In this document: one piece after another, positions 12,159 to 20,386 of the stretch
Numbering within the stretch: the stretch's first letter is position 1
How the letters are laid out: each line of letters begins with the position of its first letter
Assembly (NCBI GenBank): GCA_002171925.1
Contig: NHIT01000002.1
Span: 1 to 24,016, forward strand
Direction: 5' to 3'
Source of the DNA: Candidatus Pelagibacter sp. TMED196
Lineage (GTDB): Bacteria; Pseudomonadota; Alphaproteobacteria; Pelagibacterales; Pelagibacteraceae
DNA: 24,016 bases
The notes under the pieces: model-generated
The model's input: only the letters and a program-made list of their open reading frames with translations
The model's database searches: none
What the model was told of the DNA's origin: nothing
Program-made: the position numbers and the translations under genes

Positions 12159-14225
12159 ATGACAAATCCTCAAAAAAATAGTTCGAATAAAGAATATAAA
12201 GCAGATTCAATTAAAGTATTAAAAGGACTGGACGCGGTTAGAAAAAGGCCAGGAATGTACATCGGGGACACTGATGATGGATCTGGATTACATCATATGG
12301 TTTTTGAGGTTGTAGATAATTCAATTGACGAAGCCATTGTAGGTTATTGCAAAAATATTACAGTTACCTTACACAAAAATCGATCTGTAACAGTGGAGGA
12401 TGACGGAAGAGGAATTCCAACTGATTTGCATAAAGGAGAAAAAAAATCTGCTGCTGAGGTTATCATGACGCAATTACACGCTGGAGGAAAATTCGATCAA
12501 AATTCATACAAAGTATCTGGAGGGTTGCATGGCGTTGGTGTTTCAGTAGTTAACGCGTTATCTAAAAAACTTGAATTGACAATATTTAGGGATGAAAAAG
12601 AATATTTTATTTCTTTCGAAAATGGAAAGACAGTAAACCCAATAAAATTTTTAAAGAAAACAAAAAAATCTGGCACTAAAATTAACTTTTTACCCTCTGA
12701 AGATGTTTTTTCATCTACAAAATTCAGTTCAACAATTCTACAAAAAAAAATGAGAGAACTAGCTTTTTTAAATAGTGGTTTAACAATTAAGCTAATCGAC
12801 GAAACATTTGCTAAACCTAAAATTTTTGAGAACAAATATGATGGAGGTGTAGCCCAATTTGTCCAATTTGTTGATCAGAAAAAGTCACTTTTAATTAATA
12901 AAAATGAGAAAGCTACTTTTAAAAAACCGATATATCTTAAAGGTGAAAAAAGCAGCGTGACTGTTGAATGCTCATTTCAGTGGAATGCTGGTTTTTCAGA
13001 GGATGTAATGGCTTTTACAAATAACATTCATCAAAAAGACGGCGGGACACACCTTCTTGGCTTCAGGAGTGCATTAACAAGAATAATAAATAAATATGCA
13101 TCAGAAAAAAATTTAACTAAAAAGAATAAAGTTGTTATAGGTGGAGAAGATATTAAGGAGGGTTTAACAGCAATTTTATCAATTAAAATGCCTGATCCAA
13201 AATTTTCATCACAAACAAAAGACAAACTTGTTTCATCAGAAATCAGAAATGTTGTTGAAACTATTGTAAGTGAAAAAGTAACAGTATGGTTTGATCAGAA
13301 CCCTTCTGTAGTAAAAGTAATTTTGGACAAAGTCCTTCAAGCTGCAATTGCTAGAGATCTCGCAAGAAAAGCACGGGATAGTGTTAGAAGGAAAGGTTCA
13401 TTAGAGCTTTCAGGTCTTCCTGGAAAATTGGCTGATTGTCAAATATCCTCAATGGAGGGCACAGAGCTTTTTATAGTTGAGGGAGATTCAGCAGGTGGTT
13501 CAGCAAAACAAGGGCGAAAAAGAGAATTCCAAGCTGTTTTACCTCTTAGAGGTAAAATTTTAAATACTTATGTAAATGAAAACAAAAAACGGAATGGAGC
13601 TAATGGAAGTCACGAAAATAAAACCCTATCTAAAATGATGTCTTCAAATGAGATCGTTACTTTAATAAATGCTCTAGGGACCGGATCAACTAATTTCAAC
13701 ATGGAAGACTTAAGATATGAAAAAATAATTATTATGACAGATGCGGATGTTGATGGATCACATATTAGAACATTGCTTTTAACTTTTTTTAATAATAAAC
13801 CATTTAATGAATTAATAGAAAAAGGACATTTATATTTAGCTCAGCCCCCGTTGTTTAAAATAACTAAAGGAGCAAAAACTTCTTATATTAAGAACGAGAA
13901 AGATTTAGAAAAATATATTCTCAAATCATTAGATAACGTAAAAAAATTGAGCAAAAAAGAATTAGAAAAAATTATTAACGAGGAAAGACAAAAGTTAAAT
14001 ATTCAAAGGTTCAAGGGTTTAGGGGAGATGAACCCAGAGGAGCTTTGGCAAACTACCTTAAATCCTGATAATAGAATTTTGTTGAAGGTTGAATATTCAA
14101 AAGGCACAAAAGAAAAATCTAAAGAAGACCAAAATATAATAAAAATATTAATGGGAGACGAAGTGGCTCCACGAAAAGATTTTATTACTGAAAAAGCCTT
14201 AGAGGTTGAAAACTTAGACATCTAA
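12159..14225 (+). CDS. gyrB: DNA gyrase subunit B
   Basis: GyrB is the ATPase subunit of DNA gyrase, which introduces negative supercoils. The 688-residue protein has the GHKL ATP site with catalytic Glu50 and Asn54 (E. coli Glu42 and Asn46), DDGRGIP, and GGLHGVG. The TOPRIM domain has EGDSAGG starting at Glu441, PLRGKILN, and the metal-binding Asp528, Asp530 and Asp532. The C terminus, GLGEMNPEELW followed by a stretch ending VENLDI, is complete. The protein lacks the roughly 170-residue insert in the C-terminal half of E. coli GyrB. ParE is an alternative in principle, but the position after dnaA-dnaN and the GyrB-type N terminus favour gyrB. The stop is 5 bp before regB. Confidence 0.94.
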   Translation: MTNPQKNSSNKEYKADSIKVLKGLDAVRKRPGMYIGDTDDGSGLHHMVFEVVDNSIDEAIVGYCKNITVTLHKNRSVTVEDDGRGIPTDLHKGEKKSAAEVIMTQLHAGGKFDQNSYKVSGGLHGVGVSVVNALSKKLELTIFRDEKEYFISFENGKTVNPIKFLKKTKKSGTKINFLPSEDVFSSTKFSSTILQKKMRELAFLNSGLTIKLIDETFAKPKIFENKYDGGVAQFVQFVDQKKSLLINKNEKATFKKPIYLKGEKSSVTVECSFQWNAGFSEDVMAFTNNIHQKDGGTHLLGFRSALTRIINKYASEKNLTKKNKVVIGGEDIKEGLTAILSIKMPDPKFSSQTKDKLVSSEIRNVVETIVSEKVTVWFDQNPSVVKVILDKVLQAAIARDLARKARDSVRRKGSLELSGLPGKLADCQISSMEGTELFIVEGDSAGGSAKQGRKREFQAVLPLRGKILNTYVNENKKRNGANGSHENKTLSKMMSSNEIVTLINALGTGSTNFNMEDLRYEKIIIMTDADVDGSHIRTLLLTFFNNKPFNELIEKGHLYLAQPPLFKITKGAKTSYIKNEKDLEKYILKSLDNVKKLSKKELEKIINEERQKLNIQRFKGLGEMNPEELWQTTLNPDNRILLKVEYSKGTKEKSKEDQNIIKILMGDEVAPRKDFITEKALEVENLDI

Positions 14226-14230
14226 TTAAT

Positions 14231-15517
14231 ATGAAATTTTCTGACTTCCTCAAATATGATGAGGATTTAACGCTTCAAAAAAAAACTGTAGTTATTCTAA
14301 GATGGATAGCTTTAATTGGTCAGCTTATAACTGTTTATGTAGTTCATTTTTTCTTAGATTTAAATGTTCCAATAATTTTATGTTCAATAACTATTTTTTG
14401 TGGGGGACTGACAAATATTTTTATACAATTCTCGTTTAAAAAAAATCAATTAAGTAATATTGAGTCAACTATTCTTCTTTTTTATGATGTAATACAATTG
14501 AGTGTCTTGATATATTTAACTGGTGGAGTAACAAATCCTTTTGTCATTTTTTTAGTAGTTCCAGCGATAGTTTCATCTACATTATTAAATTTAACAAGCA
14601 CTTTCTTTTTATCATTCATTACAATTATTGGTTTAATTCTTTTAACTTTTAATTATTTTCCATTACCAAACAAAGGGAATATACATTTTCATGTTCCTGA
14701 ATATTACTTATATTCTATACCTACAGCATTAATAATTGTTCTTATTTTTCTAAATTATTTTGGATTTCGTTTTGGTCATGAGGCAAGGAAAAGGAGCGAA
14801 GCATTAAATAGACTTGAAAGTGTACTTGCAAAAGAACAAGAGCTAGACTCAATCGGACACCAGGCAGCCGCCGCAGCGCATTCTTTGGGAACACCACTTT
14901 CAACTATTACTGTAGTAGCAAAAGAATTAAAAAAAGATATCAAAGATAACCCTAAATATTCTGAAGATGTTGATACAATTCTTTCAGAAGTAAAAAGATG
15001 TGGAGATATATTAAAAAAACTTTCTAAAAGAGAAATAGTTGATGACATCTATATTTCAAATATTGCACTCGAAGATTTATTATTTGAAATTAAAAATTCT
15101 TTTGAAGAAATTTCCGAAAAAAATATTGACCTATATTTAAGCAAGAAAAATGAAAAAACACCTATAAAAAGATCACCAGAATTAACTTATGGTATTCGTA
15201 ATTTTGTTGGAAATGCGGTTAAATTTTCTAAAAAAAATGTCTCCATAAACTTAATTAATAATAAAGATGAAATAAAAATTAAAATAATAGATGATGGTCC
15301 AGGATTTCCAGATGATGTATTTAAAATAATTGGTGAACCATATATTGCTTCAAAAGTAAAAAAGTTTAAAAATAAATCAGGTCTTGGTCTTGGAACTTTT
15401 ATTGGAAAAACACTTCTTGAAAGAAAAAAAGCTATTATAGAATTTTCAAATATTGAAAAAGGTGGTGCGTCCGTAGAGATCTCTTGGAAGTATTCTGATT
15501 TAGTTATAATTAATTAG
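14231..15517 (+). CDS. regB: Redox sensor histidine kinase RegB/PrrB/ActS family
   Basis: RegB is a membrane sensor kinase that reads the redox state of the quinone pool and cysteine thiols, and phosphorylates RegA to control respiration and carbon/nitrogen metabolism. The 428-residue protein has about six hydrophobic segments over residues 18-180. The RegB quinone-site motif GGVTNPF is at 98-104. The H-box AAAAAHSLGTPL carries the phospho-accepting His217, and Cys257 in VKRCGDIL corresponds to the redox-active Cys265 of Rhodobacter RegB. The ATPase domain shows NFVGNAVKFS, DDGPGFP and GLGLG. Oddity: the residue after His217 is Ser, where the family usually has Glu or another acidic residue. 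It follows gyrB by 5 bp and overlaps the end of the convergent aguA by 8 bp. The regA gene lies about 4.3 kb away. Confidence 0.92.
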   Translation: MKFSDFLKYDEDLTLQKKTVVILRWIALIGQLITVYVVHFFLDLNVPIILCSITIFCGGLTNIFIQFSFKKNQLSNIESTILLFYDVIQLSVLIYLTGGVTNPFVIFLVVPAIVSSTLLNLTSTFFLSFITIIGLILLTFNYFPLPNKGNIHFHVPEYYLYSIPTALIIVLIFLNYFGFRFGHEARKRSEALNRLESVLAKEQELDSIGHQAAAAAHSLGTPLSTITVVAKELKKDIKDNPKYSEDVDTILSEVKRCGDILKKLSKREIVDDIYISNIALEDLLFEIKNSFEEISEKNIDLYLSKKNEKTPIKRSPELTYGIRNFVGNAVKFSKKNVSINLINNKDEIKIKIIDDGPGFPDDVFKIIGEPYIASKVKKFKNKSGLGLGTFIGKTLLERKKAIIEFSNIEKGGASVEISWKYSDLVIIN

Positions 15518-16562
15518 GTTCTTGCTGTGTTAGACAATGTATTGTCCCAAAACCCCACACTAAAATAGAACAATCCACAGGTATAATTTCTCTGCTTTTG
15601 AAATGCCTTTTAAAAATTTTTAAAACTATTTCATCTTTAGGGTCTTTAAATGTAGGAACCAAAACAATCTTATTAGCAATATAAAAGTTCAAATAGCTTG
15701 CTGGAACTCTTGTACCATTTATTTTTTTTGGTTTTGGCATTGGGATTTGAACAATTTTTAATTTTTTTTGATTTTTGTTTTTAAACTCTTTTAAAATTTA
15801 AATATTTTCATTCAAATTTTTAAAATTCTTTTCTTGTTTATTACTTTCCTTTGCGATGAAAATTTTATCCTTATTTACAAATCTTGCAATATCATCTATG
15901 TGCCCATGCGTATCATCGCCCTCAATCCCATTATTGAGCCAAATTATTTTATTGATACCTAAAAATTTTTTAAAGATTTTTTCATAATCTTTGGTCTCGA
16001 ATCCCTTATTTCTTTCTTGTATTTTACTTATCAGACATTGTTTAGTTGTTATAAGTAACCCATTTCCATTAACGTCTATTGACCCACCTTCGAGAACAAT
16101 TTTCCTATTTTTAAATTTAGGTTTAATTACTTTAATTTTAGTTGTTTTTTTAATTTTTAAATAAGCTTTATTATCTTTTTTAAAATTCTTATATTTTGCC
16201 CAAGCATTAAATTTCCATTTTGATAGTATTTTCTTATCATTTTTAAATTTTAAAAAAATAGGTAACGAGTCCCTTGTCCACGATCTGTCAGTTTTGCAAT
16301 TAATAAGTCTAATATTATTAATTTTTGTACCAAACTTTTTTAAAGCGACAACCACCTCACGGTGATCTGATTTATTATTGACTAGGATATTTACTAATTG
16401 CACCTTCGATAAAGCTGAAATTATAACTGCAAAAACATTTGGAATACTCTTAAACTTACCTGGCCAATCTTTTTTATTATGGGGCCATGCAATCCAGGTA
16501 GACTTTTGAAGCTCCCACTCCGCAGGCATCCTGTATGCGCCATATCTTTTTAAATTAGGCAT
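15510..16562 (-). pseudogene. aguA: Agmatine deiminase AguA interrupted by one in-frame stop
   Basis: Intact agmatine deiminase converts agmatine to N-carbamoylputrescine and ammonia. Read without the interruption, this frame gives 350 codons, the full family length. It has the N-terminal MPAEWELQKSTWIAWPHN region, the EGGSIDVNG and GDDTHGHIDDIARF active-site motifs, the VPASYLNFYIAN motif, and the catalytic Cys343 in GTIHCLTQQ. Codon 255 is TAA (15800-15798), flanked by NENI and ILKEF. The frame does not change across it. Family proteins carry sense codons there, and a single base change from AAA (Lys) would explain it. Ordinary translation gives a 254-residue product without the catalytic Cys. 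It is the last gene of the polyamine operon, overlapping aguB by 8 bp. A sequencing error, stop readthrough or a true fresh mutation cannot be told apart here. Confidence 0.9.
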
Positions 16563-17430
16563 CTCTGGGATTATTTAATATGCCTTTATAATAGTCTATC
16601 CTTCGGTCTCTAAAAAATGGCCAGTGTCTTCTAGCAGTTTCAACTTTTTTATAATCAATATCACAAATTATAGTTTTTTCTTTTTGCTTGGAACTGACAA
16701 CAACATTTCCACTTGGATCAAATACAACGGTATTTCCCCAAAACTCTAATTTTTTTGATCCCTGTTTTTCTATGCCTACTCTGTTTACTGCCGCAACATA
16801 GACACCATTAGCAATTGCATGAGACCTTTGAATTGATAGCCAAGCATTAAGTTGAGATTTACCAAATTTCTTTTTTTCTTTTGGGTGCCATCCTATAGCA
16901 GTTGGATAAAAAAGTATTTCAGCACCTAATAACGATGTCAATCTAGCAGCTTCAGGAAACCATTGATCCCAACATACTAAAGTTCCAACATTACCCTGAT
17001 TTGTTTTAAAAGATTTAAATCCTAAATCTCCAGGAGTAAAATAAAATTTTTCATAGTATTGAGGATCATCTGGAATATGCATCTTTCTATACTTTCCAAT
17101 TAATTTACCTTTTTCACTTATAACAACACACGTATTGTGATAAATACCTGATGTTTTTTTTTCAAAGATTGATCCAATAATTATAACTTTAAGCTCTCTC
17201 GCTAACGAACAAAGAATATTACTACTTTTTCCAGGAATTTTTTCAGCCAAATCAAAATTTGAATGTTTCTCTTGTTGGCAAAAATAATTTGATAAAAATA
17301 GTTCAGGCAAACATATTATTTTTGCTTTTTTTTCACTAGCCTCTTTAATTTTTTTTATAGCAGTATTCATATTCTTTTTCTGCTCAGAAGACATTTTCAT
17401 CTGTATTAAAGCTATTCTTGTTTTTGTCAT
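16555..17430 (-). CDS. aguB: N-carbamoylputrescine amidase
   Basis: AguB hydrolyses N-carbamoylputrescine to putrescine, CO2 and ammonia, the last step of the agmatine route. The 291-residue nitrilase-fold protein has the Glu-Lys-Cys triad: Glu43 in CLPELF, Lys116 in KYRKMHIPDDP, and the nucleophile Cys153 in LVCWDQWFPE. The HIPDDPQYYEKFYF segment, the PTAIGWHP loop and the C-terminal RRHWPFFRDRRID are typical of AguB rather than other carbon-nitrogen hydrolases. It starts 4 bp after the deoxyhypusine-synthase-like gene and overlaps the start of aguA by 8 bp. With aguA broken, its substrate would have to come from elsewhere. Confidence 0.93.
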   Translation of the reverse strand: MTKTRIALIQMKMSSEQKKNMNTAIKKIKEASEKKAKIICLPELFLSNYFCQQEKHSNFDLAEKIPGKSSNILCSLARELKVIIIGSIFEKKTSGIYHNTCVVISEKGKLIGKYRKMHIPDDPQYYEKFYFTPGDLGFKSFKTNQGNVGTLVCWDQWFPEAARLTSLLGAEILFYPTAIGWHPKEKKKFGKSQLNAWLSIQRSHAIANGVYVAAVNRVGIEKQGSKKLEFWGNTVVFDPSGNVVVSSKQKEKTIICDIDYKKVETARRHWPFFRDRRIDYYKGILNNPRDA

Positions 17431-17434
17431 TTAA

Positions 17435-18478
17435 TTAAAATAATTTTTGAAAATTTCTTCGCTCTCTATTTTTCCAATTTTGACGATGATATGCGTCACT
17501 AGCAATTAATGGTAAAACGCTAGTTGCTTCGGCAAAAACCATTTGTTCCTTTGATGTATCTACCTTGCCCCATGAACTTGCCTCTTTCAAGGTCGAACTA
17601 CTGCAAGCACCATCTCTGGTGTCAGCAACAGTGATTTGAATTGCATACTTATGCATATCGACTTTTTTTCCTAAAAGCTCAGCACATACCACCGTATCTT
17701 GAACAAAGTTTTTTGGAACACCCCCACCGACCATTAACAATCCTGAAGCTTTAGACTTTAATTTAATTTCAGTAAGTTCTCTAAATTCTTTAATTGAATC
17801 TATCGTGATGTGTTTTGATGGATTCTGTTCTTGATGCATAACCAATCCAAAACCAGCTGAACTATCTGTAAATGCAGGACAGAATATAGGAACATTATGA
17901 TCATAGGCTAATTCAATAAGAGAATCCTTCTTTTTTGCATTATTTTTCAAATACTTACCTATTTCTTTAATAAATTCTCTAGAAGTATATGCTTTTGGAG
18001 TTAATTTATTTGCAATTTCACAAATAGTTTTATCACAAGCTTGTAACTGCTCTTCGTCAATATAGGTATCGTATATTCTATCTATATAGTTTTCTCTTAG
18101 TATTTTATCATCTTGAAATTGATCACCCTGATAATGTTTGAACCCTAAAGCTTCAAAGAAATCCATGTCAATTATAGAGGCACCCGTAGCAACTATAGCA
18201 TCAACCATATTAAATTTAATTAAATCAGAATAAAGTTTCATACATCCCGCGGCAGACATTGAGCCCGCAATTGTCAAAAATATTGAGCAATTTTTATCTT
18301 TAATCATCTCGTTATAAATTTCCGCAGCTTTAGCAGTGTCTCTTGAAGTAAAAGACATTTTTTTCATAGAGTCGATTATTTTTCGTGAGTCAAAAGAAGT
18401 GATATCTATGTGTTCAACTTCAGATTTTAATAAAGATTTTTTATTGTGACCAAGTGTAGGCCCATTTTTTTTATTCAT
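17435..18478 (-). CDS. Deoxyhypusine-synthase-like protein (probable homospermidine synthase)
   Basis: A 347-residue member of the deoxyhypusine synthase family, NAD-dependent enzymes that transfer an aminobutyl group. The catalytic lysine appears as Lys305 in SSWGKV, equivalent to Lys329 of human DHS in its SWGKI motif. The FLTIAGSMSAAG segment (residues 67-78), GGGVPKN (251-257) and EATSVLPLIASDAY (317-330) also align. The residue after Lys256 is Asn257 where human DHS has the active-site His288. Bacteria lack the eIF5A substrate. Plant homospermidine synthases evolved from DHS, so formation of homospermidine from putrescine is the likeliest role (inference). Its ATG shares one base with the stop of the decarboxylase gene (TAATG), showing coupled translation in a polyamine operon. 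Confidence 0.85.
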   Translation of the reverse strand: MNKKNGPTLGHNKKSLLKSEVEHIDITSFDSRKIIDSMKKMSFTSRDTAKAAEIYNEMIKDKNCSIFLTIAGSMSAAGCMKLYSDLIKFNMVDAIVATGASIIDMDFFEALGFKHYQGDQFQDDKILRENYIDRIYDTYIDEEQLQACDKTICEIANKLTPKAYTSREFIKEIGKYLKNNAKKKDSLIELAYDHNVPIFCPAFTDSSAGFGLVMHQEQNPSKHITIDSIKEFRELTEIKLKSKASGLLMVGGGVPKNFVQDTVVCAELLGKKVDMHKYAIQITVADTRDGACSSSTLKEASSWGKVDTSKEQMVFAEATSVLPLIASDAYHRQNWKNRERRNFQKLF

Positions 18479-19656
18479 TACGCAACTAAATATTTAACCT
18501 TTATCCCGCCATCATACATGGAAAGAATCGGATTATCATCCAATTGATAAATTTCGTCTGAATAAAAACCATTAAATTTTGTTCTAAAAGTTGTTCCATA
18601 AGCACCAAGCTGCCCAAGCTCAATATAATCACCCTCTTTGATATTATTTGGTAATAAGAAAGGGCCTTTCATATAATCAAGACTGTCACAAGTTGGACCA
18701 TAAAAATTAAAAGCAGTTAATTTTTTAGAGAGCGGCCTTCCATTTGTAATCATTTTAGAAGGCAGAATAAAATTTGGTACTCCGGCATCAAATAACGATC
18801 CATAAGTGCCGTCATTAATATATAATTTTTGTTTTTTTCTTAAAATCACTTTTACTATAGTTGATCCAGCCTCAGCAACTATTGCACGACCAGGCTCACA
18901 AAAAACTTCAGGCATTTTCTCTAATTTTAATTTTTCTAATCCGTTTTTAATTTCTGCCATATAGTTTTCCAATGGTTCTGGAATTAAATCTGGATATATT
19001 GAGGGAAAGCCACCACCTATATTTATAACATCCGGTATGATCTTGGTTTTTTTAATAATATTCCCAATTTCTTGTATTCCTTTTGAAAATGAAATTTTAT
19101 CCATACACTGAGAACCGACATGAAAACTTAAACCAACTTTTCTTCCATGTTCTTTGCAAAGTCTTAAAAGCCCTAAAGCTTCACTTGCTAAAGCCCCAAA
19201 TTTTCTGGATAAATCAATTTCAGCATGTTCATTTGAAATTGCGACTCTCACATACAAATTTAAATCCCTAGCATTGTTTGTTGCATCTAAAATCTTTAAT
19301 AATTCTTCTTTAGTATCTAAAGCAAAATCTCTAACATTATAATGAAAATATGCCTCTCTGATATTTTCTCTACTTTTAATTGTATGCATAAAATAAACTT
19401 TTACTTTATCATCTATTTTTTTAACTAATTTAATTTCATTAATTGATGCAACGTCAAAATTTTGAATTCCATTATTAATAATAGTTTTAATAACTTTTTC
19501 GTTTGGATTTGTTTTTACAGCGTAGAGTATTCTGCCAGGAAAGTTTTTTTTAAAAAACTCAACAGATTTTTTTATGGATTTAGGTCTGATGCAATAGACC
19601 GGATAATCTGGTTTTAAAGTGTTAACTAATTCGTTAACTTTATCAAATTTTCGCAT
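18478..19656 (-). CDS. Ornithine/lysine decarboxylase, alanine-racemase-fold type
   Basis: A 392-residue PLP-dependent decarboxylase of fold III (the family of eukaryotic ornithine decarboxylase and bacterial lysine/ornithine decarboxylases), producing putrescine and perhaps cadaverine. The PLP lysine is Lys48 in YAVKTNP. HVGSQ is at 179-183, the phosphate loop GGGFP at 214-218, EPGR at 254-257, and the active-site Cys323-Asp324 in GPTCDSLD. The length fits ornithine decarboxylase and not the roughly 630-residue biosynthetic arginine decarboxylase. Diaminopimelate decarboxylase is unlikely given the CDSLD motif. It is the first gene of the polyamine operon. A GGGGGA Shine-Dalgarno (minus strand, 19670-19665) lies 8 nt before the ATG at 19656. 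I give no symbol because ornithine versus lysine preference cannot be read. Confidence 0.9.
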   Translation of the reverse strand: MRKFDKVNELVNTLKPDYPVYCIRPKSIKKSVEFFKKNFPGRILYAVKTNPNEKVIKTIINNGIQNFDVASINEIKLVKKIDDKVKVYFMHTIKSRENIREAYFHYNVRDFALDTKEELLKILDATNNARDLNLYVRVAISNEHAEIDLSRKFGALASEALGLLRLCKEHGRKVGLSFHVGSQCMDKISFSKGIQEIGNIIKKTKIIPDVINIGGGFPSIYPDLIPEPLENYMAEIKNGLEKLKLEKMPEVFCEPGRAIVAEAGSTIVKVILRKKQKLYINDGTYGSLFDAGVPNFILPSKMITNGRPLSKKLTAFNFYGPTCDSLDYMKGPFLLPNNIKEGDYIELGQLGAYGTTFRTKFNGFYSDEIYQLDDNPILSMYDGGIKVKYLVA

Positions 19657-19664
19657 CTCATGTG

Positions 19665-19670
19665 TCCCCC
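19665..19670 (-). promoter_or_regulatory. Strong Shine-Dalgarno of the polyamine operon
   Basis: On the minus strand GGGGGA stands 8 nt before the decarboxylase ATG at 19656, an unusually G-rich site in this window. It also lies 3 nt before an out-of-frame ATG at 19661, which opens an 11-codon frame ending at 19626 and overlapping the gene start. Confidence 0.55.
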
Positions 19671-19684
19671 AATTATTACACAGT

Positions 19685-19716
19685 TAAGCTTCTAAAAAAT
19701 TTACTAAAAAAGCTTA
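19685..19716 (-). promoter_or_regulatory. Candidate leader hairpin of the polyamine operon
   Basis: TAAGCTT (19685-19691) and AAGCTTA (19710-19716) form a perfect 7-bp inverted repeat around an 18-nt AT-rich loop, 28 bp upstream of the decarboxylase ATG. The spacer between the decarboxylase and regA is 160 bp and must hold both divergent promoters, neither of which I can place confidently. The hairpin could be a leader structure or chance; each arm includes a self-palindromic AAGCTT. Confidence 0.3.
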
Positions 19717-19816
19717 TATATTTTTTCAAGTAATAGTTTTTTACCTTTATGTAAAGCAAATAATTCAAGATTGTCGCATTGTAATATTCACAATAGTGAC
19801 TATATGACAACAATAT

Positions 19817-20386
19817 ATGAAAGCAGACAAATCACCCCCAGGTTTAAAAATAACTGACTTTGAGGACAAGTCTCTCCTAATAGTTGACGATGATGATCCT
19901 CTGAGAATGAGGCTAAGTAGAGCTATGGAAAAGAAAGGTTTTCAAGTTAAAGACTCGAAAACTGTTGAAAACGCTATTAAAATGGTCATATCTGCCCCTC
20001 CAAAGTTTGCTTTAGTAGATTTAAGACTAGAGGATGGAAACGGCCTCGATGTTGTTAAAGAGATTAACAAAGTAAAAAAAGATAGCAGAATTGTGATGCT
20101 AACCGGCTATGGGAACCTTCCGACAGCTGTAGCAGCGGTTAAATCCGGTGCTATAGACTATTTGGCTAAACCTGTCGACGCCGATGATGTAGAGGCAGCT
20201 CTTCTTTCGGACCCAGATTCAAAGGCAAAACCACCTGAAAACCCCATGTCAGCTGATAGAGTAAAATGGGAACATATTCATCGTGTATTTGAGCTTTGCA
20301 ATAGAAATGTGTCTGAAACAGCAAGAAGACTTAAAATGCATAGAAGAACTTTGCAGAGGATTTTATCTAAAAGATCGCCTCGTTAA
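19817..20386 (+). CDS. regA: Redox response regulator RegA/PrrA/ActR family
   Basis: RegA is the DNA-binding partner of RegB and a global redox regulator. The 189-residue protein has a receiver domain with acidic pocket residues 24-27 (DDDD), phospho-accepting Asp68 in ALVDLR, Thr96 in MLTGYGN and Lys118 in YLAKPVD. A short proline-containing linker (KPPENPMSADRVKWEHI) leads to a Fis-type helix-turn-helix, VSETARRLKMHRRTLQRILSKRSPR (residues 165-189), which is the RegA hallmark. The ATG at 19817 lacks a clear Shine-Dalgarno; another ATG at 19803 is out of frame. regB is about 4.3 kb upstream with the minus-strand polyamine genes between. Its TAA overlaps the TAA of convergent bioY by two bases, so no terminator separates them. 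Confidence 0.95.
   Translation: MKADKSPPGLKITDFEDKSLLIVDDDDPLRMRLSRAMEKKGFQVKDSKTVENAIKMVISAPPKFALVDLRLEDGNGLDVVKEINKVKKDSRIVMLTGYGNLPTAVAAVKSGAIDYLAKPVDADDVEAALLSDPDSKAKPPENPMSADRVKWEHIHRVFELCNRNVSETARRLKMHRRTLQRILSKRSPR

Follow-up and report, generated by a model that had tools for sequence, protein, structure and literature searches.

An aguA gene that breaks off at an in-frame TAA, inside a polyamine operon of the SAR11 clade, raises the question of whether a pathway is being lost, a stop codon is being recoded, or a single copy or a single consensus sequence has gone wrong. The gene lies in Candidatus Pelagibacter sp. TMED196 (GenBank assembly GCA_002171925.1, contig NHIT01000002.1), of which positions 1 to 24,016 of the forward strand were analyzed (24,016 nucleotides, here called the window). 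The best genome matches of the window were Pelagibacteraceae records, placing it in SAR11; those carrying AG- names are presumably single-cell genomes. Here, we report that the TAA is a nonsense codon of an ordinary, isolated kind in a gene that is well conserved, and that nothing found indicates that agmatine use is being lost or that the stop is recoded.

The interrupted gene and its operon

The aguA reading frame runs on the minus strand from an ATG at 16562 to a terminal stop at 15512-15510. Its coordinates, frame, start, final stop, and single internal TAA were confirmed as given in a preliminary description made from the sequence alone. The parts of the gene are as follows.

15510..16562, minus strand: aguA (agmatine deiminase/iminohydrolase family), 350 codons, broken at codon 255
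15800-15798, minus strand: in-frame TAA at codon 255, the single internal stop of aguA
15801..16562, minus strand: predicted product, a 254-residue N-terminal piece
15513..15797, minus strand: 95 post-stop codons, still constrained, with H342 and C343
15513..15740, minus strand: first in-frame restart past the stop, at Met275 (76 residues)

Frame and family motifs were found on both sides of the stop, as had been claimed. The piece before it matched PF04371 at residues 11-253 (profile positions 1-224, 226.2 bits) and the post-stop piece matched profile positions 227-321 (113 bits), both above the Pfam gathering score (25 bits), so the profile runs on across the stop; the best solved match, 1xkn_A, likewise aligned at 5-249 and then at 253-345. 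The read-through AguA was gapless in a 350-column alignment with 23 homologues (chosen from database protein-search matches), of which 12 had 1 to 11 gaps. In the same alignment, H342, C343, W336, and G337 were invariant, and invariant residues were present both before and after the stop. Compared with members of the PF04371 family (agmatine deiminase/Porphyromonas-type peptidyl-arginine deiminase), the window DNA covers the profile and keeps the C-terminal Cys and His, but the gene is interrupted. Because the frame continues, the motifs persist, and dN/dS downstream is low (0.11-0.15), the interrupted gene is real as sequence, beyond chance. Its internal stop was the only one in 21 gene intervals of the window, the other 20 having been taken from the open reading frame list and being open by construction. 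A nonsense step is an easy one in aguA: a single base separates 90 of its 350 codons from TAA, and across the window 5.6% of all conceivable substitutions in coding sequence create a stop.

Cys343, which we take to be the catalytic Cys of the AguA family, is encoded after codon 255, in agreement with the preliminary description, and is thus absent from the 254-residue product, which we infer to be inactive. None of the codons between the stop and Met275 is ATG, GTG, or TTG.

The minus-strand gene order is PLP decarboxylase, dhs/speY, aguB, and aguA. The three genes upstream of aguA are open, with ends touching or overlapping, as described earlier. The operon and the rest of the window contain the following.

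18478..19656, minus strand: PLP-dependent decarboxylase, Orn/Arg/DAP family
17435..18478, minus strand: dhs/speY (deoxyhypusine-synthase-like), intact; homospermidine synthase in a published cluster
16555..17430, minus strand: aguB (N-carbamoylputrescine amidase family), intact, overlapping the aguA start by 8 bases
14231..15517, plus strand: regB-type histidine kinase, convergent with aguA, the 3' ends overlapping by 8 bases
19817..20386, plus strand: regA-type response regulator, flanking the operon on the side opposite regB
Window, followed by the minus-strand operon: coaBC, ubiB, ubiE, mutM, dnaA, dnaN, gyrB, and regB
Window, beyond the minus-strand operon: regA, ABC ATPase, and polA
Window, same side of the operon as regB: katG
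Window, same side of the operon as regB: Irr-like regulator, scoring under that model's cut-off
Window, same side of the operon as regB: ThiF/MoeB-type adenylyltransferase, scoring under model cut-offs
Window: other genes, presumably bioY, rpsT, fabA, and an SH3 protein

The polyamine operon is thus flanked by regB and regA, redox two-component genes (14231-20386). A convergent regB followed aguA in 30 of 30 loci (L001-L030), and no regB match was present in the examined stretch of L031-L035 and L040. GyrB (12159-14225, plus strand) has 688 amino acids against 803 positions in the proteobacterial model; long matches in SAR11 loci suggest that the short form is common to relatives rather than a defect.

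The four operon genes stand side by side on one strand as an ADC-SpeY-NCPAH-AIH cluster, and 33 of 36 SAR11 loci had the full set; contig ends cut the remaining three (L008, L021, and L023). According to the available part of a 2023 report (PNAS, PMC9992855), Ca. Fonsibacter ubiquis clusters the same kinds of enzyme (ODC/ADC, DHS/SpeY, NCPAH, and AIH), a likeness in gene content; the window differs in that its aguA (AIH) carries the in-frame TAA. The Ca. Pelagibacter ubique cluster in the same pages shares the decarboxylase kind (ODC/ADC) with the window but has an arginase/agmatinase homologue where the window has AIH and NCPAH. There, decarboxylase homologues from SAR11 were assayed as arginine decarboxylase, and DHS/SpeY is described as a homospermidine synthase (PMC9992855). 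By analogy, the operon would lead from arginine through agmatine and N-carbamoylputrescine to putrescine and homospermidine, and it is most likely a biosynthetic route rather than an agmatine-consuming one.

The substrate name of AguA is putative and rests on operon context, not on TIGR03380, whose equivalog cut-off (381.8 bits) was missed by the read-through AguA (236.3) and equally by two intact SAR11-type proteins, P0002 (232.3) and L001 (235.1). AguB also scored under its equivalog cut-off (289 versus 410.25). The dhs product (17435-18478, minus strand) passed the NCBIfam model for 1,9-bis(guanidino)-5-aza-nonane synthase (579.8 versus 500 bits) and for this reason might use agmatine ahead of AguA/AguB, instead of putrescine after them.

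Codon 255 in relatives

At the codon 255 column, a sense codon was found in 36 of 36 SAR11 loci (16 K, 8 Q, 6 E, 3 D, 2 N, and 1 R; 36 of 40 loci used, four others left out). Three overlapping genome draws gave no internal stop in aguA: 0 of 21 copies in the genus (from 31 genomes, 21 of which matched), 0 of 63 family rows (from the 61 genomes of 147 that matched, one row being a short fragment), and none among the rows listed for a larger draw (aguA matched in 150 of 397 genomes). Among the matches listed, the nearest database protein, P0002, was intact and 99% identical to the read-through AguA. Compared as protein, the two differ at residues 38, 130, and 255 only, with Glu at position 255 of P0002 and no difference in the 95 post-stop residues. 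The preliminary description had suggested AAA as a possible earlier codon, which finds no backing in a column this variable or in the Glu of the nearest intact protein. It had also proposed comparison with related genomes, and the sense codon found there, the outcome that it had named as refuting, points, as it foresaw, to a sequence error or a rare variant.

A search with the 254-residue piece returned no 254-residue product among the best 120 of 8000 metagenome protein matches, and one with the 76-residue piece returned no identical 76-residue protein among the best 120 of 170; clustering of the database at 90% could conceal copies with the same stop, and recurrence may escape such searches. 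As a side observation, AguA C-terminal fragments of exactly 76 residues were numerous, and nine that were inspected begin at a Met matching Met275; they may be contig-edge gene calls or broken genes. A separate protein, P0144 (81 amino acids, on a 247,515-base contig), is 87% identical to the AguA C-terminus, and its first residues resemble another frame of the region. The aguA of that relative may be frameshifted near a poly-A run, truly or by homopolymer error.

Between the window and six relatives, dN/dS was 0.06-0.09 upstream of the stop and 0.11-0.15 downstream; the 15 pairs of those six relatives gave downstream values of 0.06-0.23, a range that encloses the window pairs. Taken alone, the higher post-stop values of the window pairs could hint at relaxed constraint. 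The identity of P0002 over that part suggests that the post-stop divergence is older than the stop. No decay was visible in aguA downstream of the stop, and close relatives showed no shared disabling change or added decay of the kind that a pseudogene fixed in the lineage would leave. The stop is isolated among the relatives examined and is probably a very recent single-codon change; the earlier view that the damage is recent is supported by the near-identity of P0002 and the low downstream dN/dS.

The slot after dhs/speY

In the family draw, dhs was present in 132 of 147 genomes. Among these 132, the slot after dhs/speY held aguB/aguA in 62, an arginase-family gene in 70, and both in none; related genomes are not independent, and Fisher values were given no weight. 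A first count by distance limits had given 59 with aguA, 69 with an arginase-family gene, 0 with both, and 4 with neither, and those four were then read. Three (G117, G093, and G050) have aguB directly after dhs, heading to the contig end, and were counted in the 62 from aguB; in the fourth (G069), one inserted open frame is followed by a gene with 78% identity to the L051 agmatinase, and this genome was counted in the 70. The aguB search covered only the genus and the four re-read genomes. The insertion in G069 (L060, 1089-1871) is an extra 261-codon open frame between dhs and the agmatinase-type gene, the sole such spacing among the 70.

Within the genus, dhs was found in 27 of 31 genomes, 21 of them with both aguA and aguB. 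The other six had neither and carried an arginase-family gene just after dhs (a partial match in G031); in G020, G023, G024, and G027, none of the four gene searches matched. No arginase-family match was found in the 21 genus genomes with aguA. Across the family, 10 of the 59 genomes with aguA in the slot had an additional arginase-family match elsewhere (marginal in G048), none of the ten belonging to the genus of G001. In L051, an agmatinase-type gene lies between dhs and a convergent regB (388-2322); it passed the TIGR01230 agmatinase cut-off (203.6 versus 174.3) and was the sole slot gene of its kind scanned.

Both slot states are already present in two published clusters (PMC9992855, available part), and the available parts of PMC9992855 and PMC10407285 contain no count of their mutual exclusion. 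With 0 of 132 slots empty, the pattern suggests that selection maintains the step even where genomes are streamlined.

Error, private allele, and weaker readings

The window very probably records an isolated, very recent nonsense change in one aguA copy, either as a private null allele or as a consensus error; how the weight falls between these two is our judgement and not a measurement. If the stop is real, translation would end after 254 residues, Cys343 would be lost, and AguA would be dead, and the cell would have to take in polyamines or rely on an agmatinase encoded beyond the window. If it is not real, a one-base consensus error would account for it.

We put a consensus or amplification error, with the organism's own aguA intact, only just short of an even chance. 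Such an error would fit the absence of the stop from all relatives examined (36 loci, 21 genus copies, and 63 family rows), the existence of an intact protein 99% identical to the read-through product, and a filled slot in every dhs-bearing family genome. The preliminary description had suggested a sequencing or assembly error near a poly-A/T stretch. Error is still a candidate, but an indel in a poly-A/T run is no explanation because the frame is kept, and codon 255 lies outside any long homopolymer. Nor do private changes at otherwise invariant columns show a clear excess: they numbered 3 of 5270 (0.57 per 1000) in the window, 3 of 5267 in L001, 0.19-0.34 per 1000 in L002, L003, L004, and L016, and 1.63 per 1000 in L005 (29 of 40 loci used, L023 and L031-L040 left out). 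The window sequence is not clearly poor, nor is it the cleanest, and poor assembly in general was rejected as an explanation on this count. The single-cell genome error rate given in the available part of PMC4053759 is low (5e-6 per base) and corresponds to about 0.0003 expected nonsense errors per aguA, or 0.006 at 1e-4; the rate of 5e-6 does not favor error unless the source was more error-prone. True nulls are likewise rare (0 of 63 family rows).

We hold it possible, at somewhat below even chances, that one cell or strain carries a genuine null allele private to it and obtains its polyamines by uptake. Loss could be tolerated, given that two SAR11 strains took up and concentrated five polyamines (PMC8437039, available part). 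Against a private null stand the absence of the stop from every relative examined and the 21 aguA-bearing genomes of the genus, in which no arginase-family match hints at a backup enzyme.

An established loss of the AguA step in the lineage is very unlikely. Six dhs-bearing genus genomes do have neither aguA nor aguB, but in all six dhs is directly followed by an arginase-family gene (partial in G031), P0002 is intact, and the window operon is open apart from aguA. With the stop in no relative examined and no empty slot among the 132 dhs-bearing family genomes, loss across the lineage was rejected. The ongoing loss of agmatine use considered in the preliminary description is not supported either, the operon looking biosynthetic.

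Programmed readthrough, which had also been raised, or reassignment of TAA is still harder to credit. The constrained post-stop part would suit it, but none of the 36 loci has a stop at the codon 255 column, the RNA after the stop folds like its shuffles (z 0.06; 109 of 200 shuffles at least as good), and TAA terminates 17 of the 21 window genes. Least probable of all is a split enzyme, in which a 76-residue piece restarted at Met275 would join the 254-residue piece. This Met is invariant in the 24 aligned sequences and the database has stand-alone 76-residue proteins beginning at it, but such an enzyme would lack the stretch between residues 255 and 275, many of the short proteins come from contigs no longer than about 1 kb and could be gene calls at contig edges, and no 254-residue partner appeared among the best 120 matches of each of two protein searches.

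The isolated nonsense change itself carries little weight beyond caution in annotating this contig. It is doubtful, though conceivable, that a real TAA marks a SAR11 strain with an empty agmatine-to-putrescine step, in transit between exclusive slot states; in such a strain, agmatine would be made but could not be processed, and imported putrescine would sustain the cell. The slot pattern is of more interest than the stop, and a true aguA null in the wild would be an exception to it.
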